A DNA stretch of 37,208 nt. It comes from Pirellulales bacterium (lineage in GTDB: Bacteria; Planctomycetota; Planctomycetia; Pirellulales; JALHPA01). The stretch covers positions 1-37,208 of the forward strand of contig JANRLT010000005.1 of assembly GCA_033762255.1 (NCBI GenBank), in the 5' to 3' direction. The translations under genes and the position numbers were made by a program. Below are positions 9,168 to 37,208 of the stretch, piece by piece. Every line of letters begins with the position of its first letter. Position 1 is the stretch's first letter. Under the pieces are notes generated by a model, which had not been told where the DNA came from, did no database searches, and was given only the letters and a program-made list of their open reading frames with translations.

Positions 9168-9783
9168 CCAATCCCTGGTCCGCGCGAATCATCGCCACAT
9201 GGTCCATGAACAGCCCGATGAGCGCTCCTTGGGCCCGCAGGTAGCTCCCCTGGATAAAAAAACAGAGGCCCACCCAGCCAATGGACAGTAGCGCCGCCGT
9301 GTAATGCCAGACGATCCAGGTTTCGCTGGGAAAGCTGCCAGCGCGGGGGTCGTTGCGCAGCGGATCGGACAAAGCCCCGAGCGCGGCCAGCCCGACCAGA
9401 CTCAGCATGGAGAGCACGCCCCAGGGAAAGCTTTTGCGCTTGTTGATTTGAGCCTCTTCCATCCATTCCTCCGGGACACCATACGTTAGGCCGACTTCCT
9501 TGCACCAGCGGCTGGTTCCGATCATATAGGTAATGGCCAGGCTATTGACCAGCATGACCAAAATCGCCGAGCCAATCCCCATCAGGCGATGCGTGTTGAG
9601 GTACGTCGTGGCGGGCCGGTGTTCCGCCTGAAATGCCTGAATGCGGACGGTGTCGCCGGACTGTTGGACCCGGTACGCCTGCCGCATGAGATCAGGATAA
9701 TCGCCAATGGATAACCCGACCGCCAAAGTCGCCACGAGCATGATCAGGGCCACGACGGCCAACGGGGTAAATATGCGAATCAC
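9163..9783 (-). CDS. Four-helix integral membrane protein, unknown function
   Basis: The 206-residue product has hydrophobic helices at about residues 5-26, 67-90, 120-138 and 152-175. The first loop (~30-60) is polar and periplasmic in the simplest topology. His residues sit at the start of the second helix (LNTHRLMGIG) and the fourth (IVWHYTAALL). Such placement can ligate heme in four-helix membrane cytochromes, but the match is only suggestive. The start used is a GTG at 9783 with no strong ribosome-binding site. The stop codon is contributed by the last unit of the hairpin array. I do not recognise a named family. Confidence 0.7.
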   Translation of the reverse strand: MIRIFTPLAVVALIMLVATLAVGLSIGDYPDLMRQAYRVQQSGDTVRIQAFQAEHRPATTYLNTHRLMGIGSAILVMLVNSLAITYMIGTSRWCKEVGLTYGVPEEWMEEAQINKRKSFPWGVLSMLSLVGLAALGALSDPLRNDPRAGSFPSETWIVWHYTAALLSIGWVGLCFFIQGSYLRAQGALIGLFMDHVAMIRADQGLE

Positions 9784-10516: not shown

Positions 10517-13500
10517 TTACTTTGGCTTTTCGTCCATCCCCTGCAAGACTTGCTGTTCCAGGTGCGGTAGCTTGCCCAGTTCGCCGTTAAAGCGTTCGGG
10601 CCAAACCCGCCCGCGCAGTTGATTTAAGGTCTCCCGCGCTTCCCCCCAGGCCTTGGTTTGAATTTGCGCCTCCGCCAGGCGCACCAGTCCCGTCGGTTCC
10701 AGGCTGCGCAGTTCCGCCACTTTTTGCCACAGGGGAATCGCCAACGCCCACTGTTGCCGCTGGCCGCGAATTTCCGCGAGCGCGGTAAAGCTTTCGGACT
10801 CGGTCGGGGCGGCCTCGATGATGGAGGTCAACGCCCGCTCCTCGGCATCCGGGCCAAATGTTTTCTGGTCGGCGGCCAGTTTTTCGGCCAGTTTGCTATA
10901 CAGACTGGCGTTGCGGCGATCCTGCTCGATCCACTTCTGTAGCACCGCCACGGCCTGTTTGGTATCGCCCAGCTTTTCCAGCGATTCCAGCCAGACACCA
11001 AAAATTTGTGCATTTGTGGGCTGCAAATCGTAGGCATGCTGAAACTGGGTAACCGCTAGCTCATGCTGGTTGGAAGTGGCCAAGACCTGGGCCAGTGTCA
11101 GCCGCAAAATCGGCCAATCCTGATTCGTCCGCGCGATGCGGGCGTCCAGTTCCTGGATAAAAGCCGGCAGATCGGCGATTTTCTCCACGATCTCCCGCAG
11201 ATTTCGCAGCGTGTTTTCGCGTTCACTATAACGCGGATCCCAGCAACTGACCGCACTGAGGGCCGCGTCCACCGCCGCTTCGTTTTTATTTTGGGCGATT
11301 AACGCCTTCGACAGGGAAATATACAAATCCGATAAAAAGCGGTCCCCCTGCCCGGCGGCGGTATTGTCAGCCAGCCGCAGGGAAATGGCCTCGGACAAGT
11401 ACTTTTCCGCCTCGGGATACAATTCGACGGACAGGCAGGCATCGCCCAGCGATTGAATATTGCCCACCAGCCAGCGCCCCCCGGCATGAAAATGTTTGTC
11501 CGTCGCGGCCAGCAGTTCGGACAATTGTTGTGGTCGTTTAGCGGCAAAGTACGCCTGCATGAGCCGCGTGCGGTGCCGCATTTCATCGGGACGCGCGGCG
11601 ACAAATTGCTCCAAGAGCGCGATCGCTTCGGGCGAACGGTTCCGGTCGATCAAGTGCTGGACCAGCACTTCCTGTCCGCCAAAGTCCAGCAGTTGAGCTT
11701 TATCGGCGGCGAATAAAATCTCAATCGAGCGATCATAGCGATGCAGCCCGCTCCACAGGTATTCGGCGATAAACATGATATGCCGATGGGAGTTGACGTT
11801 TTGGGCCAGGACCTCGTTGGCGATGGCCACCATTTCCTCCGCTTTGGCGTGCCAAAAATAGGAATAGTCGATATGCGTCATTTCCCGCTGCGTGGTTTGC
11901 AGGGTTTGCAGTTCCTGCCGCAGGACGTCGGCGACGATCTTCCACAGCCGCGGCTCCAACTCGCGGTATTCGTCATTATCGGCGGTGATGGACGCGCGGT
12001 ATTGGGCCAGTAACCCCCCCAGATTTCGCCAGGCGTTGTTCCAGTCGTACCGCAGCCGGTCGGGGTATTGCTCGTACCGTTCGATAACGTACCGCAGCGC
12101 GGCCACCAGCCCGAGGGATTCCTTTACGATGGATGCGGGCAGCGTCACGGTGTTGGCATATTGCTGCACCTGCTTTTCCAGAATGCCGGGCATGACCGTG
12201 AATGCCAGTTTACGCACTTCTGCCATGGTCGCGGGTAATTTGCGTTCATGGCCAATCCCCAGGGCATCCACCCACAGGCGGGTAAGCTCGTAACGCTCGT
12301 GTTCCTGGTCGGCGGCGTCGATTTTTTGCTGATAAAATCGTGTGACCGCAGGTAGTAACTCGTTCCCCGCCCCAATGCTGACCGAGCCTTGCTCGCGCAG
12401 CGCTCGATTATACAGTTCGGCCAGGCGATATAGCACCCGCTGGCGCAGGCTGGTGTTGGCAGCCTGGTCCATGACCGGAATCAACAGGTCTTCGCCCGCG
12501 CTAAACTGCTTTTGATATTCATGCATGCCGATCAGGCTAAAGAAATTGTCAATTTCCTCGATGGGCCAAGAGTTTTCATGCTGGGCCAAAAAACGCTCGC
12601 AGGTGACGCGCATCCGCCGCAAGCCATCCTGAGGACGCTCTAGATTGTAAAATTCCAGTTCGGCGATCGCGCGGCCTAGGTGCAGGTCATCGGTACTGCC
12701 GGGCTTGACCAGTTTGGTCAATTCTGCCAATTGCCGCAGTTGCTCGGCGGCCAGTTCCCAATGCGGCACCCTGCCCAGCTTGGTCAGGAATATCCCCATG
12801 AGCGCTGGCTCGTTCGGTTGCCATTCGCGATTAAAGGCGCGCTGCAGGGCCGCCACGCTGGCCGTAATATGCGGACCGGGCTGGTTGAGGACCGCCGCGG
12901 CCTGATATTCGACCAGGGCCTCTACCAGATCGAGCGCGCGGGCGTCGGTGGTAGTGAGCTTGCCGGTGCGAATTTGTTTAATTTCGGCCAGAATTTCATC
13001 GGCGGTGGATTCCACGCGTATCACATCCAGCGTCCCGTGCAGAGTCTCCATAAAGCGGTAAATCTGCTGCGCGGAGCGGCCTAGGACCGCGCGGGGAATG
13101 ATCCGCAGCAGGCGAAAATCCGCGCTCGAGAGATACAACTGCCGCAGTTCGCTGAGGTAATTTTCGGGTTGGCTCGATTTTTCAAAGAGCGCGCGAATCG
13201 CCAAGAGTTGGTTGTCGTCGATGGTGGTGGGGAGTGTTCCCCCCGACTGCCAGCGATAGCAAACATTATTAAAAATGTTATTAAGCTGTGATTCCGGTAG
13301 CAGCCGCCAGGCCCGCAGTCGCGCGTCGTCGTATTTGTCGCGCTGATTGAGCGCCAAATACCACTGCGCGAGTGTCTGGTAGTCCCCTGGAGTAAGCAGC
13401 TTGCGGCTGGCGGCGGTTTCAAACAGCGTGACCGCCGTGGACAGGTCTCCCTGTTCGGCCAGCAACTTGGCTAGGGCCACTGGCCAGGGGGACGTTGGTT

Positions 13501-16500
13501 CCGCCGCCGCGCTCCAGACTCGCACGACGCGTAGCAGTTCGTCGATTTGGTTGGTGGCGACCAGCCACTGGTATTGCAGTTTTTGCCAGGGGAAACGCTC
13601 TTCGGCGGGAAAATCCAAACCAGCGGCGATGAATTTGGCCAGCCGTTCCTTCCAGTTGGCTCCCACCGATTCCCGCGCGGTCAAGGAAAGTATCGTGATA
13701 AACGCCCGCTCCCGCAGTTCCCCGGCGATTGCCGCCGCCTGAATCTTTTGGGCTTGGGCCAAGAGCTGGGCCGGATTTTGATCGTCGATCAACTCTAACT
13801 CGGTGGCGGGATCGGCGGGAGAATTGCCTCCGACACCGGGGAGTTCTGGCTGCAGGGGTTTTTCTTGCTGTTCCCGTTCGGTGGCGTCATCCTCGGCCGC
13901 GCGGAAGGGGACCTCCCCCACGATTTGCCAGCAGAACTCCAGTGTTTCGGTCAGGTTGGCGTCGGTGGGAACCTGCAGATAGGCCTGTTCCACGCGGATC
14001 CAATTGGCCAGCGCGGCGGCCTGCTCGGCGGGTGGCGTGCGGCTGTCAATTTCTTTGACTGGCTCTGCCGCGGGATTTCCGGCTGCGGGCTGATTGACAT
14101 TGCCAGCCTGGGCCAATACTTTTTCATGCTCGGAAATGTAACGCTCGATCAACTGCGCGCGGGCGGTATCGCGGATTTTCTGTTCCTCGGCGGCGCGCTC
14201 GGTGCGCGTGAGCTTATTGACGCCCCCTTGATCCCGCCACGCGGTCAGGCCCGCTGTGATCCGCATTTGCAACAGCGCATCGGTATAGCGGTGCAATAGG
14301 CCCAATTGTTCGAATAGGGGGAGTTGTTCATCGGAGGTTGTGCGCAATTCACGCAGGATCGTGAAGAGTTCATCCTCGATGGCAGGCGTCCAGGGAAGGC
14401 CTAGCAGGTGATCGACCAGTTCGCGGCGGAGTTGGGTCACTTGGTTTGCCGGCGCGGTTTGCAGGCGTTCGCGGAGGAACGGCAGCAACTCGGTGTCGGC
14501 GAATTTATTGACATAGATCAGCCGCAGTGCGTTCCCCAGCGCGGCCCGATCGGCATCGGTTTTGACCGCGCGAAAACGCTCGCGCAGGATTTTTGCGATA
14601 GGCTGCCACAAGGCTGCTGGCACCTCGCTGGCGGACAGATACTTGCGATTGTTGATCGGTTCGGCCACGGACAACTGCCCGGTCAGGGCGTGTTCCGTCG
14701 CCAGGGACGTTTGCTCTGGCGTCAGCTGGTCCGCACGCTCGCGCAGCTGGGCAAAAAACCACGCCCGCAGTTCATCACCCGGCGTGCTATCCAGTATGTT
14801 CGAGCCTAAAATCGTTTGCACATAAGAAAAGTTGTGCTGATGGTCAAAGAAGTGGCGGGTCGCTGCGGCCAGGGTGGGATGCCACTTATGCGCGCCCAGT
14901 TGCAGGTTGAGCCGCCAGACGCCCCCCCGCATATAGTTGAGCGCGGCATCCAGCTTGACGCGCTGTGTCGGCGACAGCTTAGAGGCAACTTGCCCCTCCG
15001 CCAGCCACTGCGCGGCCAGTTTGTCGGCTTCGGCTAGTTTGTTATTGAAAACCAGGGCCGCTAGGTATTGCTCGTGGGCGCTGCGGGATTCGGGCAACTG
15101 CTCTATCGCCGCCGTGGTCCGCTGTAATACTTCCGGCCAGCGGCCCAGTTGCGCTAAATAGTCCAAGTATTTTTCTTGCAACGCTTCACGGTGGTATTGA
15201 TCCAGTTTGACGGGGCGATCCAGCTCTTTTTGGAGCCAGGCAAAGGCAGGGGTGAACTCGCCCAGGGCCACCAGCCGATCGGTGTATTGCGTTTGGCGGT
15301 AGACTTCCCAGGGAGCGGCTTCCGCCAGTTGCCGGGCACGGTCCAGGACCTCGCGCTGGCGATTCAGGTTTTGCAAGAGGTAATACTCGTTCTGCACAAA
15401 GGTATCCATGGCGTTTGCGAATTTTGGCGCGCGGTCATAAACCGGCCGCAAAATTTGCAACAGTTCCCACTGTTCTTCGGGACTGGAGACTGTTTGTGCC
15501 TGGCTATAAATCCAGTTGGCCAGCGGCAATTCCTGCGGCTGCGCGTTGGCGGCCAGTTGTTTGGCCGCGGCCAACAAGATGACGCGGGCTTCCTCGTTGC
15601 GGCGCATCGTGGAGAGTATGAGCGGCCGCAGCCATTTACTACCCGGTTTGGCCGCGGTCAGTTTTTCTAGTTCGGCAACATGGGTCAGGGCCTCATCCCA
15701 TTGCTGATTGAGGCAATTATGCACCAACAGCACCAGCCGGTCGTTGATCCCGGCCTGCCCGGCGGCGGCAGCGGCCCGCGCGGGGGCGAGTGTGGGGAAC
15801 GGCGCGGTTACCAGGATCGTTTGCGCGCGGGGGGCCAACTCCGTTTCCAGCTTTTTGGTAAAGTCGGCGGCGGTCAGTTCAGCCACGCTGCGCGTGACTT
15901 CGTGAATGGACTGTCCCTCGGCGTTGTTGGTTTGCAGTTTGGTCCACCACCACACTCCCCCTGCCCGCACAAAGTCGCTGTAATCGTCGGTGCCAACCAA
16001 CTTCCCATTTTGATGGGTCTCGCGGCGGAGCAGGACTTTGCGTTCAGTGTCGATGGTATACTCGTGGCGATAGTTATCGTCACTGGCCAGGATCAGCTTG
16101 GCCCGGTTGGGGCCCGCCGCCTCCACTGTCGCGGTCAAGTAAACCTGATTCGCCAGCAGTGTGGTAATGGAACCATCATTAAATGTTGTGGGAAACGTGG
16201 TCAGTTCCCGCCGCAGCGCGGGCCGCGCGGTCCCCCAACCCGACATGAGCGAAAAGACTCCCCGCTGATCTGGCTGGCAATAATTGACCAAGACTTCGCT
16301 ATTGTCCAACAGCGACCGTGTCAGCCACCCTTGGGAAGAAAAGAGCGTTAGATCCTCGCCGATGCCATACTCGCGGCCCCACTGTGGTTCAAAACTCTTT
16401 TCCCGGCGGATAACCTCGACGCCGCCGGGATGCTGGAGCAAGGTTTCCGTGATTAATAGCGACTTGGCCAGGGCGATGGCCTCTGGAGACCACTTGGTGG

Positions 16501-19500
16501 GTTGCGGTGTGGGCCAAGTTTCTCGCGCGGCGGGGGCCGAAATACTGGGCAAGAGCGCGTCCAGCCACTGCAGATAGTCGGGGGATTGTTCATAGTAGAT
16601 TCCCCGCCCCGCCATGCTGTAGGGTTTACGGAGCATGGGAGTGGTATCATCGAAAAGGGAATATCCAGCTCTAGCGCCTGAGGCACTGAGACCGGCAAAT
16701 CCATCAAAGTATGTGCCATTACTAATAATCGGCTGGCCAGCATAGGCTAATTCTGATTCACTGCCACCAAAAGGTTCATCCATTAGCATCCGCACGGACT
16801 TGCGGTCGGATTCTCGCTTGAGTCGCAACCCCAGCGATAATTCCTCGACACCAAATTCTCCATTCTGGCCATTGACATCCCAAAATTCGCTTTTGTTTTC
16901 GGCCGAAAGCTTTTGGCTAACTTCTTTATCCGACACCGAGAGACTTTCACGGCGGACCAGTTCTTCACGAAAATAGTTTTCCCCATCGGATTCCGCTAGA
17001 ACATCAAGCATATCCCCTCCCCCGCCCATGCCGCCTAGCATTGGCCCACTCGCCCAGACATCAAAGCGGCCATCGGTAGCGCTCATACTCCCCAAGGGTC
17101 CACTGGCGGGCATTGCCCCCCGCTGAAAGAAGAATCTATGCAGCGTATCCTTGGACCGAAACTCTGGCGAGCCAAGATAGCTCCTCCTGTAATGGGATTG
17201 CTCTGAAAATAATTCACTATTACGGCCCAGCTGCGACCATTGGGCCAAAAGCGACGCCCGCAGGCCCGAGCGCCAGGCCCCCGCCTGTTGCCTTTGTTGC
17301 TGCAAGAGTTCAAAGTTGGCCTTGGCGGTGGCGGCGGCAAAAAACTCCTCGCCATCGCGCATCAGGTAGCGCCGCTGCACCTTGAACCGCTGCCGGTCGG
17401 CGTCGGTCTCCAGCACCAAGAGCGACGTATACGGCGTGATGATATGAAATTCTTCTGAGAGGGCGATAATTTGGTCGCGGATCGCCGGATTTGTCCCTTG
17501 CTGCAACAGAAAGTCCAAATGCCCCCGTGCCCAGAGGCGCGGGATGAACGAGTTGCCAGCGTCATTATCCGGCAGATTCAGCCGCGCGGCGTAGCGCACG
17601 GTTTCCTGGCCCCGTTTGCCGGTGATGATGACTTCGCCAGTTTGGTTATCTCCGGTTGGCAGATAACGCCCCACGATGATCTGTTGCGTCCCCGCGGCCA
17701 GATTGGGCAGGCGTTCGGGATAGACCGCGGCCACTTGCAATCCGCGAAAATCGACCGCCAAATCCGTCAAACCGGGATTGGCGATTTCCTGTAGCAACTG
17801 CTTGGCCACCAGTACCGGAGTTTGTTCGCCCGTGATCTGCCGCAAGGATCCACGGCCCGCGTTGGCAATTCCCCGTAGCACCGCCAATTCATAGGTATTG
17901 TCCACGGTGACCGCGTGAAAGGTGAGGTTTTTGCCCAGCTGGGGTGTTTCTTTATGGTCTGTAGCGGGGGCTGGCGCAGGTGCTTCTTTGCCATCAATAA
18001 CGTCCGTGGTGGGTGCCTGCCCACTCGCGGGTGCCTGCACGGCTAATTGCCGCGTTAGATGTTTCACAAACTGTTGCGGATCACTTTGGCCGGCGGTGAC
18101 GATCCCATCGCCGATGTAAACGACGGTCGCTCCGGCGGGAGCTTTTTCCAGGACACTGGTAAACGCCAACTCCAGGTTTGTCCAACCCAGCGATGGCCGG
18201 GCCTCGAGGAATTTTTGCGTTTTTTCCAGGTTTTCCGGTGTGGGGGCTAGGGGTTCCACATTCGCCCAAGTGGTCTGGACATCGGCGGCGGCCAGCAGAT
18301 AGCGGTCGTCCGCACCTAGGCTGCCGACGAGGGCGGTGACAAATTCCCCCTGGAGGCGGCGTTGGTCGGCGTCGAGGGAAGCCGAGGTATCGCAGAGGAG
18401 CACGAGATTGAGCGGCGTGCCGTCGGGAAGTGTCTCGCGCTGCCATTTGTCCGCGCCCGTGGGGGGCATCAGTTGCAAAAGAAAATAACCGTCGCTGCCG
18501 CGGCGATGGGCGATCGCCGCCAGATCGGGCCGCTGGTCATCCAGTTCAAACACCAGCTCAAAGTCTTGCTCCGGAGTGAATTCTTGCGCGCTAAAGTCGA
18601 TTTGTGCGGCATGGGGTGTTTTACTGATCCGCACCGGATGTGTGGGGGAACTGACGGTCTTGAGCTGGGTTGTGGAATCGACGATGACGGACAGGGACAA
18701 TTCGCGCAAGGGAGTCTGCCGTAACAGTTCGCTCCGGAGGGCGTAATTGTAGCGAAACGCATTTCCCCGCAGGGGTAAAACCTGCGTATAGACGATTTTG
18801 ATCCGCTTTTCGGATTGGGCTTCGATGGGAAATACCCGCGCCTTAAAGAGGTTGCCGGCGGTCCATTCCAGCAGGCCGGGATCGCGACGCTCGCGAAGGA
18901 TCGTTTCATAAATTTCGCGGGCACGCTGCTTTTCCACCACATCGGCCTCGACCAGTTCGTTGCCAATCCACATGCCAAACCCGCTGATGGAGGCGTCCTG
19001 GGGGAGAGGAAAATGAAAGATCCCCTCCAGGCGGCTGTTCGTCCGGTTGACAAAGGATTCTTCGATGGTGGTGCGGGCGATTTGGTCCTTGATTTCGACC
19101 GTGACTTTGTGATAGCCCACGGTCAGGGGGACATTGCGACCGTCCGGCATGGTGACGACCAAGGAGCCGAGCATTTCGTTGACGGCGGTGCCGTCGAACC
19201 CCGCTAGCCATTTGGGTTCCACAGGCGTAACGGCCAATTGATTGGCGGGCGTCGTGTGCAGAATTTTTTGGCCGGAGGCGATTTTTTCGGAACCTTGCAG
19301 CGGGCCGAGCAGCGTAAATTCCGGCAGTTTGTCGGTCGGTTGTTTGACGCGGACCTCCCCCCGATGCAGCTTGGCCTGGGATGGGGTCAGGCATTCGACC
19401 AGCGTTCCCGGTCCCAGCGTCAGTTCGGTTTGCGAATTCAACGTAAGCTTGACCGCGTTGGCCCCGCGCAGTTCCGTGCGAATCCAGTCGCCGGGTTGAA

Positions 19501-20641
19501 TGGCAAGGTCCCGCGTAACCACGGTCCAACGCTTGCTGAGCGCGGGACGCAACAGCACAATCCCCTGGCTGTCGGTAACTTGGCCGATGCGGTCCGCGTT
19601 GGGCAGTTGGCCCGCGGCTACGAGATTTTGCGGCACTTGAAATTTCTCCGCGGGGATGACGGGGTTAATGGCGACTAAATGCAGTTCGGCCAGGGGGGCG
19701 CCTGCGCCCCGCCCCTGCCCCGCCGGCCACGCGGCCAGCGCCACTAATTCATGCGTAGACTGGTTAGCGTAGGCCTCGATCTCTATTTCGCTGGTGGCGC
19801 CGGTGGTGGTTTGACCTGGTAACGTTACGCGATAAACTTCGCACAGTTCTCCCTCGTATTCCATCACTTCGCTGGGAAGCGCGGCCCGCAGACGCTCGGC
19901 GTCGGTCACGCCCGTGTCCAATAAGGCCAGCAGGTCAATCTGTTGCGAAGGAGAAATAAACCAGGGGGAATCCTGCTGGGTGACGCTTTGTTTGGTTTCG
20001 TCAATTTTCCAAAAGCGCGAGCCAATCGCCACGCTGTAACGTTCCGGGGATTCGTTCATCCGCACCAAGCCGGGCGCGCGGACCAGGACTTCGGCCTGGG
20101 AAGGATTGCCACCGGTGTTTCGCTTTAGCAGAAACTGCAGCGAATCATGTTGCCGCAGCTTGTCCAGCACATTGCCAAACGGGACCGCGCTGACGGCGGG
20201 GGGATTGTTATGAAAAAAGGCAACATAGATCGCGACGCTGGCGGCCAAGGCCACTAATCCACGCCAGAGAATCGGTAACATAAATGACCTAGAGGGTATG
20301 TTGACCGCGGCGACGGGTGTCAGCGACGCCGTCGCGGAAGCGGGTGGGGAAGATACAGTTGGGGTTTCGCCAGGCCCAGGCGGCAAGGAAGAGGTTTCCT
20401 CCCGCGAAAGTTCCCGGGAGGCTTCGATTGGGGGGGCAATGCCGGGGGCACACTGGATAAAACGCGCCAAGCTCAGCTCGCGGATGCGCGCCAAAGCCCG
20501 GGTGGCGTCGGCTTCCGTGGCCGCCGGTTCCGGCTCTTGCAAATGTCCGAATAACTCCGCCAGCCGCGCTTCCGATGTTTTATCAGGAGCGTTGTTTAGC
20601 CCGGAGTGTGGGGATTCGAATTGTTCGTCGGCTGCGGACAT
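10517..20641 (-). CDS. Giant membrane protein: anti-sigma-like head, FecR-like region, VIT, vWA and long helical-repeat tail
   Basis: From ATG 20641 the product has 3374 residues. The head (~1-115) is cytoplasmic and resembles the N-termini of membrane anti-sigma factors (SEARLAELFGHLQ). A single transmembrane helix spans ~120-143. A FecR-like beta region follows (~370-465, GDWIRTE...VKLTL...ELTLGPGTL). A VIT domain lies at ~485-625 (EMLGSLVVTMPDG, EADVVEKQRAREIYE). A vWA domain starts near 745 with the intact MIDAS DTSAS at ~751-755 and YIGDGIVTAG downstream. A ~600-residue mixed region and then a helical TPR/HEAT-like tail of roughly 1800 residues fill the rest. The start is 52 bases after the sigma-factor stop, and the two are surely cotranscribed. 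An in-frame ATG at 20743 and TTG at 20764 would overlap the sigma gene. Likely an envelope sensor that holds the sigma factor; its signal is unknown. Confidence 0.85.
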   Translation of the reverse strand: MSAADEQFESPHSGLNNAPDKTSEARLAELFGHLQEPEPAATEADATRALARIRELSLARFIQCAPGIAPPIEASRELSREETSSLPPGPGETPTVSSPPASATASLTPVAAVNIPSRSFMLPILWRGLVALAASVAIYVAFFHNNPPAVSAVPFGNVLDKLRQHDSLQFLLKRNTGGNPSQAEVLVRAPGLVRMNESPERYSVAIGSRFWKIDETKQSVTQQDSPWFISPSQQIDLLALLDTGVTDAERLRAALPSEVMEYEGELCEVYRVTLPGQTTTGATSEIEIEAYANQSTHELVALAAWPAGQGRGAGAPLAELHLVAINPVIPAEKFQVPQNLVAAGQLPNADRIGQVTDSQGIVLLRPALSKRWTVVTRDLAIQPGDWIRTELRGANAVKLTLNSQTELTLGPGTLVECLTPSQAKLHRGEVRVKQPTDKLPEFTLLGPLQGSEKIASGQKILHTTPANQLAVTPVEPKWLAGFDGTAVNEMLGSLVVTMPDGRNVPLTVGYHKVTVEIKDQIARTTIEESFVNRTNSRLEGIFHFPLPQDASISGFGMWIGNELVEADVVEKQRAREIYETILRERRDPGLLEWTAGNLFKARVFPIEAQSEKRIKIVYTQVLPLRGNAFRYNYALRSELLRQTPLRELSLSVIVDSTTQLKTVSSPTHPVRISKTPHAAQIDFSAQEFTPEQDFELVFELDDQRPDLAAIAHRRGSDGYFLLQLMPPTGADKWQRETLPDGTPLNLVLLCDTSASLDADQRRLQGEFVTALVGSLGADDRYLLAAADVQTTWANVEPLAPTPENLEKTQKFLEARPSLGWTNLELAFTSVLEKAPAGATVVYIGDGIVTAGQSDPQQFVKHLTRQLAVQAPASGQAPTTDVIDGKEAPAPAPATDHKETPQLGKNLTFHAVTVDNTYELAVLRGIANAGRGSLRQITGEQTPVLVAKQLLQEIANPGLTDLAVDFRGLQVAAVYPERLPNLAAGTQQIIVGRYLPTGDNQTGEVIITGKRGQETVRYAARLNLPDNDAGNSFIPRLWARGHLDFLLQQGTNPAIRDQIIALSEEFHIITPYTSLLVLETDADRQRFKVQRRYLMRDGEEFFAAATAKANFELLQQQRQQAGAWRSGLRASLLAQWSQLGRNSELFSEQSHYRRSYLGSPEFRSKDTLHRFFFQRGAMPASGPLGSMSATDGRFDVWASGPMLGGMGGGGDMLDVLAESDGENYFREELVRRESLSVSDKEVSQKLSAENKSEFWDVNGQNGEFGVEELSLGLRLKRESDRKSVRMLMDEPFGGSESELAYAGQPIISNGTYFDGFAGLSASGARAGYSLFDDTTPMLRKPYSMAGRGIYYEQSPDYLQWLDALLPSISAPAARETWPTPQPTKWSPEAIALAKSLLITETLLQHPGGVEVIRREKSFEPQWGREYGIGEDLTLFSSQGWLTRSLLDNSEVLVNYCQPDQRGVFSLMSGWGTARPALRRELTTFPTTFNDGSITTLLANQVYLTATVEAAGPNRAKLILASDDNYRHEYTIDTERKVLLRRETHQNGKLVGTDDYSDFVRAGGVWWWTKLQTNNAEGQSIHEVTRSVAELTAADFTKKLETELAPRAQTILVTAPFPTLAPARAAAAAGQAGINDRLVLLVHNCLNQQWDEALTHVAELEKLTAAKPGSKWLRPLILSTMRRNEEARVILLAAAKQLAANAQPQELPLANWIYSQAQTVSSPEEQWELLQILRPVYDRAPKFANAMDTFVQNEYYLLQNLNRQREVLDRARQLAEAAPWEVYRQTQYTDRLVALGEFTPAFAWLQKELDRPVKLDQYHREALQEKYLDYLAQLGRWPEVLQRTTAAIEQLPESRSAHEQYLAALVFNNKLAEADKLAAQWLAEGQVASKLSPTQRVKLDAALNYMRGGVWRLNLQLGAHKWHPTLAAATRHFFDHQHNFSYVQTILGSNILDSTPGDELRAWFFAQLRERADQLTPEQTSLATEHALTGQLSVAEPINNRKYLSASEVPAALWQPIAKILRERFRAVKTDADRAALGNALRLIYVNKFADTELLPFLRERLQTAPANQVTQLRRELVDHLLGLPWTPAIEDELFTILRELRTTSDEQLPLFEQLGLLHRYTDALLQMRITAGLTAWRDQGGVNKLTRTERAAEEQKIRDTARAQLIERYISEHEKVLAQAGNVNQPAAGNPAAEPVKEIDSRTPPAEQAAALANWIRVEQAYLQVPTDANLTETLEFCWQIVGEVPFRAAEDDATEREQQEKPLQPELPGVGGNSPADPATELELIDDQNPAQLLAQAQKIQAAAIAGELRERAFITILSLTARESVGANWKERLAKFIAAGLDFPAEERFPWQKLQYQWLVATNQIDELLRVVRVWSAAAEPTSPWPVALAKLLAEQGDLSTAVTLFETAASRKLLTPGDYQTLAQWYLALNQRDKYDDARLRAWRLLPESQLNNIFNNVCYRWQSGGTLPTTIDDNQLLAIRALFEKSSQPENYLSELRQLYLSSADFRLLRIIPRAVLGRSAQQIYRFMETLHGTLDVIRVESTADEILAEIKQIRTGKLTTTDARALDLVEALVEYQAAAVLNQPGPHITASVAALQRAFNREWQPNEPALMGIFLTKLGRVPHWELAAEQLRQLAELTKLVKPGSTDDLHLGRAIAELEFYNLERPQDGLRRMRVTCERFLAQHENSWPIEEIDNFFSLIGMHEYQKQFSAGEDLLIPVMDQAANTSLRQRVLYRLAELYNRALREQGSVSIGAGNELLPAVTRFYQQKIDAADQEHERYELTRLWVDALGIGHERKLPATMAEVRKLAFTVMPGILEKQVQQYANTVTLPASIVKESLGLVAALRYVIERYEQYPDRLRYDWNNAWRNLGGLLAQYRASITADNDEYRELEPRLWKIVADVLRQELQTLQTTQREMTHIDYSYFWHAKAEEMVAIANEVLAQNVNSHRHIMFIAEYLWSGLHRYDRSIEILFAADKAQLLDFGGQEVLVQHLIDRNRSPEAIALLEQFVAARPDEMRHRTRLMQAYFAAKRPQQLSELLAATDKHFHAGGRWLVGNIQSLGDACLSVELYPEAEKYLSEAISLRLADNTAAGQGDRFLSDLYISLSKALIAQNKNEAAVDAALSAVSCWDPRYSERENTLRNLREIVEKIADLPAFIQELDARIARTNQDWPILRLTLAQVLATSNQHELAVTQFQHAYDLQPTNAQIFGVWLESLEKLGDTKQAVAVLQKWIEQDRRNASLYSKLAEKLAADQKTFGPDAEERALTSIIEAAPTESESFTALAEIRGQRQQWALAIPLWQKVAELRSLEPTGLVRLAEAQIQTKAWGEARETLNQLRGRVWPERFNGELGKLPHLEQQVLQGMDEKPK

Positions 20642-20693
20642 GCCAGTGCTTTGTGATGAAAACTTACAGTTGTCAAAAGGACAGGTGCAATCG

Positions 20694-21314
20694 TTACTCT
20701 GGCAGGGGAACGGCGGTGACGGAAATGACAGCGTGCGGGCCATGGTTGGCGGTGGCCCGGTCAAAGCACGCGCGAAATTCGCGGCGCGCCCGGGCCAGTT
20801 TGGATTTGGTGGCCTCCACCGTGGTCTGCCAGGCGGCGGCCAGTTCCTCGAGGCTTTGTCCGTCTAAATACTTGCCCAACAGCAAAGCCGTATAATCGCC
20901 GGGCAAGTCGCTCAATAAACCGCGCACCAGTTCGCACAATTCCCGCCGCTCCATGCGCGTTTCAGGCAGTTCCAGATCCAGCCAGCGACCTATGTCCCAC
21001 GCCCCCTGCTCGGCCAAGGTCTTTACCCGTACCGACCGCGCGGTCTGCCGCCAGTGGTTGGCAACCTGCTTATGCGCGATGCCCAATAGCCACGACCAAA
21101 GCGTCCCGCGAGCGGGGTCAAACTGGCGGGCGGACTGGGCGGCGGCCAAAAAGACTTCTTGCACGACATCCCCGGTCGCCGAGGCCTGGTTTCCCAGCAG
21201 ACGCGAGACGTATCGCCATAGGCCGCCGCTGTATTGGTCATACAGCGCGGTCCAGGCCTGGGTGTGTCCTTGTTGCAAACCCAGCGTCACGGCTTGGTGG
21301 TCAAATTCGGCCAA
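20694..21314 (-). CDS. ECF-type RNA polymerase sigma factor
   Basis: The 206-residue protein has a sigma-70 region 2 at ~20-95 (ALYDQYSGGLWRYVSRLLG, VVQEVFLAAAQSARQFDP, GTLWSWLLGIAHKQVANHWRQ) and a region 4 helix-turn-helix at ~140-200 (LPGDYTALLLGKYLDGQSLEELAAAWQTTVEATKSKLARARREF). Region 3 is absent, as in ECF sigma factors. It directs RNA polymerase to a small regulon, probably including its own operon. The start used is a TTG at 21314 because no nearby ATG covers region 2; no Shine-Dalgarno is visible. The next gene has an anti-sigma-like head, so it is the probable regulator. Confidence 0.9.
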   Translation of the reverse strand: MAEFDHQAVTLGLQQGHTQAWTALYDQYSGGLWRYVSRLLGNQASATGDVVQEVFLAAAQSARQFDPARGTLWSWLLGIAHKQVANHWRQTARSVRVKTLAEQGAWDIGRWLDLELPETRMERRELCELVRGLLSDLPGDYTALLLGKYLDGQSLEELAAAWQTTVEATKSKLARARREFRACFDRATANHGPHAVISVTAVPLPE

Positions 21315-36155: not shown

Positions 36156-36228
36156 GAGCTCGTAGCTCAGTCGGTAGAGCAACGGACTTTTAATCCGTGG
36201 GTCGTGGGTTCAAGTCCCGCCGGGCTCA
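36156..36228 (+). tRNA. tRNA-Lys (anticodon UUU)
   Basis: A complete 73-base cloverleaf is visible. The acceptor stem GAGCTCG pairs with CGGGCTC (one G-U), the D arm contains AGCTCAGTCGGTAGAGC, the anticodon stem is ACGGA/TCCGT with loop CTTTTAA (anticodon TTT), and the T arm is GTGGG-TTCAAGT-CCCGC. The discriminator is A and CCA is not encoded. The tRNA is separated by only three bases from the inverted repeat that opens the following small RNA unit. Confidence 0.97.
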
Positions 36229-36242
36229 GTCGGTCGTGAACG

Positions 36243-36271
36243 TTGACAAGCGTTCATACGTTTGGGATTAA
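36243..36271 (+). promoter_or_regulatory. Promoter of small RNA unit A
   Basis: TTGACA (36243-36248), a 17-base spacer and GATTAA (36266-36271, weak -10, 3/6). The whole box region is repeated nearly unchanged in unit B, which supports it as functional. Confidence 0.6.
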
Positions 36272-36277
36272 GAGAGA

Positions 36278-36408
36278 GGTACTCGGTGTGGCTGTTCTCA
36301 GGTACGGCCGCTCCCCGCGTCCCCCACTCGAAGCCCCGGCCGGAATTCCTAACCGGCCGGGCATATTTCACGACCCTTGGTCCGGCATGCGCCGGGCCAA
36401 GGGTTTTT
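36278..36408 (+). ncRNA. Candidate small RNA, unit A
   Basis: The predicted transcript is ~130 nt. It contains CTGTTCTCA, a 9-bp perfect hairpin CCCGGCCGG/CCGGCCGGG (36335-36343 with 36353-36361) with loop AATTCCTAA, the word TTCACGACC and a terminator. No open frame with a ribosome-binding site is seen, so it is likely non-coding. The conserved loop AATTCCTAA would be the natural contact region for a target RNA or protein. No named RNA family is recognised; 6S RNA, tmRNA, SRP and RNase P features are absent. Confidence 0.55.
36374..36408 (+). terminator. Intrinsic terminator of unit A
   Basis: CCCTTGGTCCGGC (36374-36386) pairs with GCCGGGCCAAGGG (36391-36403) over 13 bp with one G-U pair, loop ATGC, then five T. 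Confidence 0.93.
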
Positions 36409-36451
36409 GTTTGGTCAGACGTTTATGGTCGTGAAATCGCCTGAAAAGTGA

Positions 36452-36480
36452 TTGACAGGCGTTCACACGTTTGGGATTAA
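36452..36480 (+). promoter_or_regulatory. Promoter of small RNA unit B
   Basis: TTGACA (36452-36457), a 17-base spacer and GATTAA (36475-36480), the same as in unit A apart from two spacer bases. Confidence 0.6.
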
Positions 36481-36486
36481 GAGAGT

Positions 36487-36615
36487 GGATGAAGGCTGTG
36501 CTGTTCTCATGTGTGGCATTGCCCGCCTCCCCCCTCGAAGCCCCGGCCGGAATTCCTAACCGGCCGGGCATATTTCACGACCCCGGATTGGCCCTGCGCC
36601 ACTCCGGGGTTTTTT
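36487..36615 (+). ncRNA. Candidate small RNA, unit B
   Basis: The predicted transcript is ~129 nt with the same order as unit A: CTGTTCTCA, the identical CCCGGCCGG/CCGGCCGGG hairpin (36542-36550 with 36560-36568) and a terminator whose stem sequence differs completely from A. Retained structure with changed terminator sequence supports two independent transcripts from one ancestor. Which of the two is expressed, and when, cannot be read from the sequence. Confidence 0.55.
36581..36615 (+). terminator. Intrinsic terminator of unit B
   Basis: CCCCGGA (36581-36587) pairs with TCCGGGG (36603-36609), with an inner GGC/GCC pairing, and is followed by six T. Confidence 0.9.
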
Positions 36616-36631
36616 ATTTAAGGGTTAGTTT

Positions 36632-36934
36632 ATGAATGAAAAGCCCAACAGAACGCCCACGAGCGAGGTCCGCGCTGTACTGCACTTTGGGATTCGCAAC
36701 GGCTCCCCTGGCTCGGTGCATGTGTTACTGCCGGCAATTCCCCAAGTTAGCTCGATCTTCAATGTGGAAGATAATGGCCATAATTCACGTTGGATTGTTA
36801 AATCCGTGGAATATGAACTATTTCAGTTATCGGTGGGCGTCGTCAATAACAAACGCACCGCTTCTGCACGGTTGAGCATTGATTTGATCCCCCTGAAAAG
36901 GCGCAGGCGGGTTACGAGTAAAGATTTGCCCTGA
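36632..36934 (+). CDS. Small hypothetical protein, 100 residues
   Basis: The product looks globular and beta-rich in the middle (VRAVLHFGIRNGSPGSVHVLLPAIPQ, SVEYELFQLSVGVVNNK) with a basic tail (KRRRRVTSKDLP). No signal peptide or membrane helix is present and no family is recognised. The start is an ATG 17 bases after the unit B terminator with a weak AGGG upstream. It ends four bases from the converging next gene. Confidence 0.5.
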   Translation: MNEKPNRTPTSEVRAVLHFGIRNGSPGSVHVLLPAIPQVSSIFNVEDNGHNSRWIVKSVEYELFQLSVGVVNNKRTASARLSIDLIPLKRRRRVTSKDLP

Positions 36935-36938
36935 CCCC

Positions 36939-37181
36939 CTAAGCTTTGTTTTCCTTTTCCAACGAGTAATCACAGCTAATTTCAGCCCGAATAGAAAATT
37001 CGGGGTCGATCCTCTCTAGCCGTTTGTCGATCCCCCATATTTTAAGAGCCTTGAATAACTCATGGACATCTTGAAATGTGCCTTGAAAGTCGATGCGGAT
37101 TGCTTGTGGCAAAACCGCGGCCATGATGACTTTGCCGCCCTTGCTACTCATCGACTTTGCTTTTGTTTTGCGCTTGGCCAT
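36939..37181 (-). CDS. Small basic-start hypothetical protein, 80 residues
   Basis: From ATG 37181 the product starts with a Lys-rich MAKRKTKAKSMSSKGGK and continues as a compact alpha/beta domain (IRIDFQGTFQDVHELFKALKIWGIDKRLERIDPEFSIRAEIS). An in-frame GTG at 37205 near the window edge would add eight residues. No strong ribosome-binding site is seen. It converges with the preceding gene with only four bases between stop codons. Both may form a small accessory module with the tRNA and small RNA units. Function unknown. Confidence 0.5.
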   Translation of the reverse strand: MAKRKTKAKSMSSKGGKVIMAAVLPQAIRIDFQGTFQDVHELFKALKIWGIDKRLERIDPEFSIRAEISCDYSLEKENKA

Positions 37182-37208
37182 GATCGTAGAGCTACGGACT
37201 AACACACC

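Follow-up and report, generated by a model that had tools for sequence, protein, structure and literature searches.

Twin RNA units behind a planctomycete tRNA-Lys gene as possible copies of a terminator/leader module of tRNA-targeting integrative elements

What are two near-copies of a short, terminator-bearing sequence doing directly behind a lysine tRNA gene? The question arises near one end of a 37,208-nt stretch of a Pirellulales genome, called the window throughout, where a first-pass annotation had proposed an undescribed, duplicated family of small RNA genes (Table 1). The duplication lies where it had been placed, with 91-nt copies that are 84% alike and 207 nt apart and 37-nt copies that are 92% alike and 209 nt apart. 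Unit 1 and unit 2 agree at 6/6 positions in TTGACA, 15/17 in the spacer, 6/6 in GATTAA and 29/47 in the middle, against 50/50 in a block whose complete identity had also been described correctly. This is a high similarity for two genes within one genome, as tandem sibling sRNAs require. At the Rfam 15 gathering score the tRNA is the sole match and neither unit is matched; a relaxed Rfam search adds only matches far under the cut-offs. Elsewhere in the window, a minus-strand ORF of 3415 aa (10517-20764) covers over a quarter of the sequence.

Table 1. Positions of the features discussed, in window coordinates
Feature	Position	Strand	Remark
tRNA-Lys(UUU)	36156..36228	+	without encoded CCA
Attachment-type core	36186..36230	+	45 nt identical on contig C58, 44 nt on C43
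Unit 1	36232..36412	+	head-to-tail copy with unit 2
TTGACA-17-GATTAA, unit 1	36243..36271	+	doubtful promoter; GATTAAG matches the relatives' (G)GAATAAG/GGATAAG start
P1/P2 region, unit 1	36272..36329	+	loop motif GCTGTTCTCA; fold weakly supported
50-nt identical block, unit 1	36327..36376	+	hairpin P3 36333-36362, loop 36344-36352
Terminator T1	36374..36410	+	first strong terminator after the tRNA as well
Unit 2	36427..36620	+	head-to-tail copy with unit 1
TTGACA-17-GATTAA equivalent, unit 2	36452..36480	+	same alignment to relatives
P1/P2 region, unit 2	36481..36536	+	fold weakly supported
50-nt identical block, unit 2	36534..36583	+	hairpin P3 36540-36569, loop 36551-36559
Terminator T2	36581..36617	+	from the fold
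100-aa ORF	36632..36934	+	starts 14 nt past the T2 T-run; AAGGG ahead

Both units are predicted to fold stably, with MFE z-scores of -5.67 (36270-36410) and -4.42 (36479-36617) and 0/200 shuffles as stable. Each MFE fold contains the hairpin with the loop AATTCCTAA and one terminator at the end of the unit, as claimed. T1 and T2 differ at 14 substituted positions while keeping the fold, and none of 400 permutations is as stable in either direction. The terminator scan lists T1 whole and, at T2, only a smaller hairpin; the stretch holds 6 terminator-like sites, compared with 2.1 ± 1.9 in shuffles. The idea that middles and terminators had diverged yet kept their roles is supported for the terminators but not for the middle hairpin, where 283 and 189 of 400 permutations are at least as stable. 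In the 5′ region, 68 and 24 of 400 permutations of the differing letters reach the same stability. Shuffled sequences match the stability of the block hairpin in 3/500 cases, that of the middle in 44 and 49 of 500, and that of the 5′ inverted repeats in 6 and 10 of 500 (cut close) or 56 and 41 of 500 (cut longer). On these permutation and shuffle counts, the terminators and the block hairpin are sound and the remainder is weak.

The promoter assigned to each unit fares poorly. TTGACA is exact, but the second hexamer at 17-nt spacing is GATTAA, which agrees with TATAAT at 3/6 positions, and the promoter scan lists neither unit's combination. The stretch of the relatives that aligns to GATTAA reads (G)GAATAAG or GGATAAG, and in one copy it supplies the stop codon that ends a 100-aa ORF; given this alignment with TAAG and a stop codon, there is perhaps no -10 element at all. 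The words GGTCGTGAA/TTCACGACC, proposed to pair between the start and the end of the RNA, do occur four times, with no further copy in the window (expected, 0.29; at least four in 0/100 shuffles). Their pairing conflicts with the claimed promoter, since an RNA starting near 36275 would leave GGTCGTGAA untranscribed and thus unable to pair with the tail of that RNA. Variation of a coding type, checked as a possible refutation, was not found: two gaps of one base each put the reading frame out of register across the block, and the ten overlapping ORFs of at least 25 aa score -0.24 to +0.02, below the genes of the window (0.26 ± 0.08 for 100-codon pieces; off-frame, -0.22 ± 0.09). We therefore rejected coding units.

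Relatives of the units place them in a setting of their own. R2, a model built from the two window units, gave one outside match over 56 other genomes, in genome G014, at an E of 0.27 that alone is not significant. Here GAAGCCCCGCCCGGG-CCTCTCA-CCCGGGCGGGCATTTTTCA aligns to GAAGCCCCGGCCGG-AATTCCTAA-CCGGCCGGGCATATTTCA of the window, and the order is tRNA-Arg(ACG), ~100 nt, unit, 100-aa ORF, second unit (80% over 113 nt) and tyrosine integrase. The last 20 nt of this tRNA are not repeated exactly within the 20 kb examined. A hairpin pattern searched across all of IMG/VR has one match, in contig L128, again in a tRNA-end setting, and a looser pattern leads to the same place; the hairpin common to G014 and L128 reads GAAGCCCCGsCCGG-loop-CCGGsCGGGCAT(T/A)TTT. 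L128 presents a tRNA-Arg-like 3′ half (9485-9537, by eye), GGATAAG, the hairpin region, P3, a T-run, AAGGAAGGAA and an 88-aa ORF, followed by an opposite-strand ORF, a second tRNA-like piece and an integrase. Its unit scores 34.9 bits with R2. Because the pattern that led to L128 was itself derived from the window and G014, scores of R2 and of the later model R3 are not independent evidence; only the common setting counts as independent.

A tRNA 3′ end precedes the unit in 3/3 places, which bears on the question, raised together with the original proposal, of whether copies always follow a tRNA. The integrases of G014 and L128 are 46% identical and both lie downstream of the unit; an IMG/VR search for more relatives of this integrase returned L128's own contig only. 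The two tRNA-like 3′ pieces of L128 are 81% alike. Lying ~0.9 kb apart (L128:9485-10421), they flank a single unit and a convergent pair of small ORFs, an arrangement that looks like a mini-cassette preceding an integrase. An ORF pair of the window (36632-36934, +; 36939-37181, -) is arranged like the convergent pair of L128.

Comparison of the five units reveals a common order in the three places: tRNA 3′ end, TAAG, hairpin region, P3, and a small ORF preceded by an SD-like sequence. MAFFT aligns TAAG and P3 in 5/5 units, and RNAalifold recovers P3 alone. Eight of the ten P3 pairs are invariant, another appears as G-C in two units and as C-G in two others, and the 5′ arm carries an extra C in 4/5 units. 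Covariation across the five units is confined to one P3 pair and is not significant, as 160/500 shuffles reach the score. P1/P2 sequences differ among units. In G014 and L128, GUUGG pairs with CC(G/A)AU just ahead of GAAG, enclosing a strong stem, and the two G014 copies show one compensatory change in P1/P2, GGCTCCCC/GGGGGAGCC versus GACTCCCC/GGGGGAGTC. The would-be P1 of the window, GAG/CUC, is absent from one core fold of unit 1. The number of shuffles, out of 300, in which P1/P2 is as stable is 1 and 15 for G014, 0 for L128, and 27 and 89 for the window. P3 and its U-run are themselves terminator-like in G014 and L128, with no separate terminator seen by eye before the ORF, whereas in the window the U-run after P3 is poor and T1 and T2 are separate terminators. 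The sequence conservation of P3 is unexplained, because a plain terminator needs none.

This anatomy bears on whether the units are tandem sibling sRNAs, two ~140-nt RNAs base-pairing in trans in the manner of OmrA/OmrB. Such RNAs would account for the conserved ends, the diverged middle, the terminator of each unit and the lack of a coding signal, and a C-rich stretch could pair with SD-like strings. The weak -10 does not suit them, nor does the organization of the relatives, where the unit is a leader ahead of an ORF and where, in G014 and L128, P3 and the ORF have no separate terminator between them (by eye). We consider this reading improbable.

The small ORFs behind the units invite another explanation. 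In 3/3 places a terminator stands just ahead of an ORF, as in attenuator or riboswitch leaders, with 14-27 nt from T-run to start codon and an SD-like sequence between them; the distance is 16 nt in G014, with AGGAG ahead of the 100-aa ORF, and 27 nt in L128. The three ORFs are mutually unrelated in sequence and belong to no Pfam families. The 100-aa ORF of the window and the opposite-strand ORF of 80-88 aa have intermediate codon scores (0.09 and 0.11) and no PHROG family; across 295 other genomes each finds a single weak match (E 0.008, with two internal stop codons, and E 0.003, respectively). The units could thus form a regulated attenuator, the terminator of a leader RNA being switched by a ligand, a protein or a tRNA-derived signal so that the small ORF is regulated. 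The terminator spacing and SD-like sequence agree with this, P3 keeps its sequence in a way that an ordinary terminator does not, and the identical block could pair with the 5′ arms of both terminators (-16.5 and -15.5 kcal/mol). The window nevertheless shows no clear co-evolved antiterminator: the predicted pairing of each middle with its own terminator 5′ arm is weaker than that with the arm of the other unit (-10.6 versus -13.3; -8.9 versus -12.4). With three unrelated ORFs, no common regulated function is seen either, and regulation of this type appears unlikely.

The tRNA gene itself is the only lysine tRNA with UUU among the 30 typed of 46 tRNA loci, and the scan finds no terminator between it and T1. 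Its 3′ half is repeated at C58:6197-6241 (45 nt exact) and within C43:1147-1200 (44 nt exact); judged by these repeats, tRNA-Lys is an integration site for mobile DNA. The att copy on C43 leads into a tyrosine integrase (Pfam Phage_integrase; phrog_1, E 1.7e-38), and the one on C58 leads into a short terminator (by eye) and then a SelR/MsrB gene. The window contig, C5, ends 0.6 kb past unit 2, before any integrase is reached. The simplest order would be tRNA-Lys, the twin units with a first element, the C43 att copy, a second element, the C58 att copy and msrB; we infer this succession of C5, C43 and C58, since C5 stops at 37208 and its end matches no other contig. Among the relatives' tRNA-query loci, msrB is a neighbour in 0/29 (one locus being from the same genome as the window), and a tRNA, a tRNA-Ala, lies next to 1/19 homologues of the upstream gene.

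A search of its own genome with the C43 integrase yields 13 matches, among them the integrase itself and the tRNA-Lys stretch. Nine have a tRNA within ~200 nt (Phe, Cys, Val twice, Asn, Glu twice, Arg and Leu); of the rest, L115 lacks a tRNA and L121 shows a tRNA-Phe fragment by eye. By this count the genome is heavily loaded with predicted tRNA-targeting elements. The nine tRNA genes near tyrosine-integrase matches are on contigs C70, C65, C29, C21, C8, C49, C51 and C44 of G000 (L111-L114, L116-L120). A near-identical stretch of terminator plus repeat follows the att piece of tRNA-Lys on C43 (L037) and the tRNA-Phe on C70 (L111), and the integrases of these two loci are 53% identical. The C43 and G014 integrases are not detectably related (E 0.31). 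Short direct repeats often lie between tRNA and integrase at junctions of the window's genome (by eye).

Repeats also underlie a reading at the DNA level, in which the units hold arm-type sites of a recombinase and the hairpins reflect the inverted repeats of those sites. The P2-loop word of G014, GCCAGTTGTT, recurs at positions 1585(-), 1160(-), 970(+) and 835(-) of L005, and CGCTAGTT of L128 at 9681(+), 10543(-) and 10674(+), in each case between the tRNA end and the integrase; the direct repeats at several tRNA-integrase junctions point the same way. The corresponding word of the window, CTGTTCTCA, is instead confined to the two units and absent from the C43 and C58 stretches, the first 6 kb of C43 contain no GGTCGTGAA even when 1 mismatch is allowed, and arm-type sites would leave the terminators and P3 unexplained. 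We regard this reading as a long shot. The inverted repeats also brought a retron-type RNA into consideration. The extra P2-loop words near the G014 integrase (L005:822-980), one of them inverted, are possible arm-type sites.

Searches for further copies returned little. R3, a model of all five units that matches its own sequences by construction, recovers over 97 sources those five and one 18.1-bit match that is coding by eye. It has no other match at nine other tRNA-integrase junctions of the window's genome or at 28 tRNA-query loci of other genomes, and the module is therefore not a general feature of such junctions. Nothing convincing came from BLASTN with the units in 38 other genomes, from R2 at E ≤ 0.05 in 295 and 391 other genomes (overlapping sets) or from two contig pattern searches; these null counts say little, as the two-sequence R2 also missed G014 among the 295. 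An earlier IMG/VR pattern gave 0 matches, and plasmids and phages gave none. We discarded the IMG/VR matches L003, L039 and L040 (inside long ORFs), L085-L089 (10.3 bits at best), L129 (C-rich repetitive sequence without a tRNA) and 11 contig pattern matches (~13 guessed by chance), none planctomycete by title and the best, at 17.7 bits, within an AATTCC-type repeat run.

We favour, with a probability of slightly under one half, the reading that the units are copies of a tRNA-proximal terminator/leader module of tRNA-targeting integrative elements, which ends the host tRNA transcript before a small cargo gene. An element entering the 3′ half of the tRNA gene would separate the tRNA from its native terminator, and the module, composed of TAAG, a P1 stem with a P2 hairpin, the conserved P3 and a U-run, would supply a new end for the transcript. 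The spacing from T-run to start codon, and the presence of P3 with its U-run or of T1/T2 after the tRNA 3′ end, fit a module that replaces a displaced terminator. The reading builds on features present in the DNA (the duplication, the terminators, the common P3 and order, the att copies, and integrases in 2/3 places); from these it would have the tRNA transcript run on and terminate in the cell, and the window copies would belong to such an element. Little room for a promoter exists between the last terminator and the ORF, so expression of the cargo ORF would probably require either read-through from the tRNA promoter or transcription starting within the module.

Elements entering tRNA genes are well known to restore the tRNA 3′ end, and they must preserve tRNA function; restoring the terminator of the tRNA is, to our knowledge, much less discussed. 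A conserved RNA module with a different small gene each time would make cargo expression from a host tRNA promoter testable, and the module would serve as a signature for locating such elements. A stronger and rather unlikely version is a new class of structured RNA between captured host tRNA and small cargo gene, in which the host tRNA promoter drives the cargo and the RNA terminator gates it; if true, the element would use the tRNA as both landing site and regulated power supply. What stands of the first-pass annotation is a duplicated, apparently non-coding, terminator-bearing unit without an Rfam match, of which further copies exist; the claim of independent promoters is weak. Two separate sRNA genes are no longer the simplest reading. 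G014 and L128 show the unit as a leader with a terminator, placed after a tRNA 3′ end, ahead of a small ORF and close to an integrase.

In the PMC literature, where terminators brought by integrative elements were not targeted, we recognised no description of this module. The Rhodopirellula-1 motif (Weinberg 2010) resembles the module in being a candidate structured RNA, listed for Proteobacteria and Planctomycetes (PMC2864571). OmrA/OmrB, PrrF1/PrrF2 and AbcR1/AbcR2 are, like the units, arranged head to tail in two copies whose ends are conserved and whose middles have diverged. OmrA and OmrB are expressed RNAs of 88 and 82 nt with known targets and conservation in enterobacteria (PMC4211561), whereas the putative RNAs of the window lie between a tRNA and an ORF. 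3′ETS-leuZ, which a title in a reference entry presents as a 3′ external transcribed spacer of tRNA transcripts (PMC7213987), is comparable as an RNA straight behind a tRNA in one transcript; the trailer here would differ in coming from mobile DNA and in being long and structured. The sgm-sRNA of SGI1, likewise an RNA encoded by an integrative element, lies in the mobilization module with oriT (PMC10954446), whereas the window module sits at the attachment site. Attenuators and tandem riboswitches, like the module, place a structured leader with a terminator directly ahead of an ORF, an arrangement that the window has in duplicate; they differ from the module in that the ORFs downstream of the module are unrelated.
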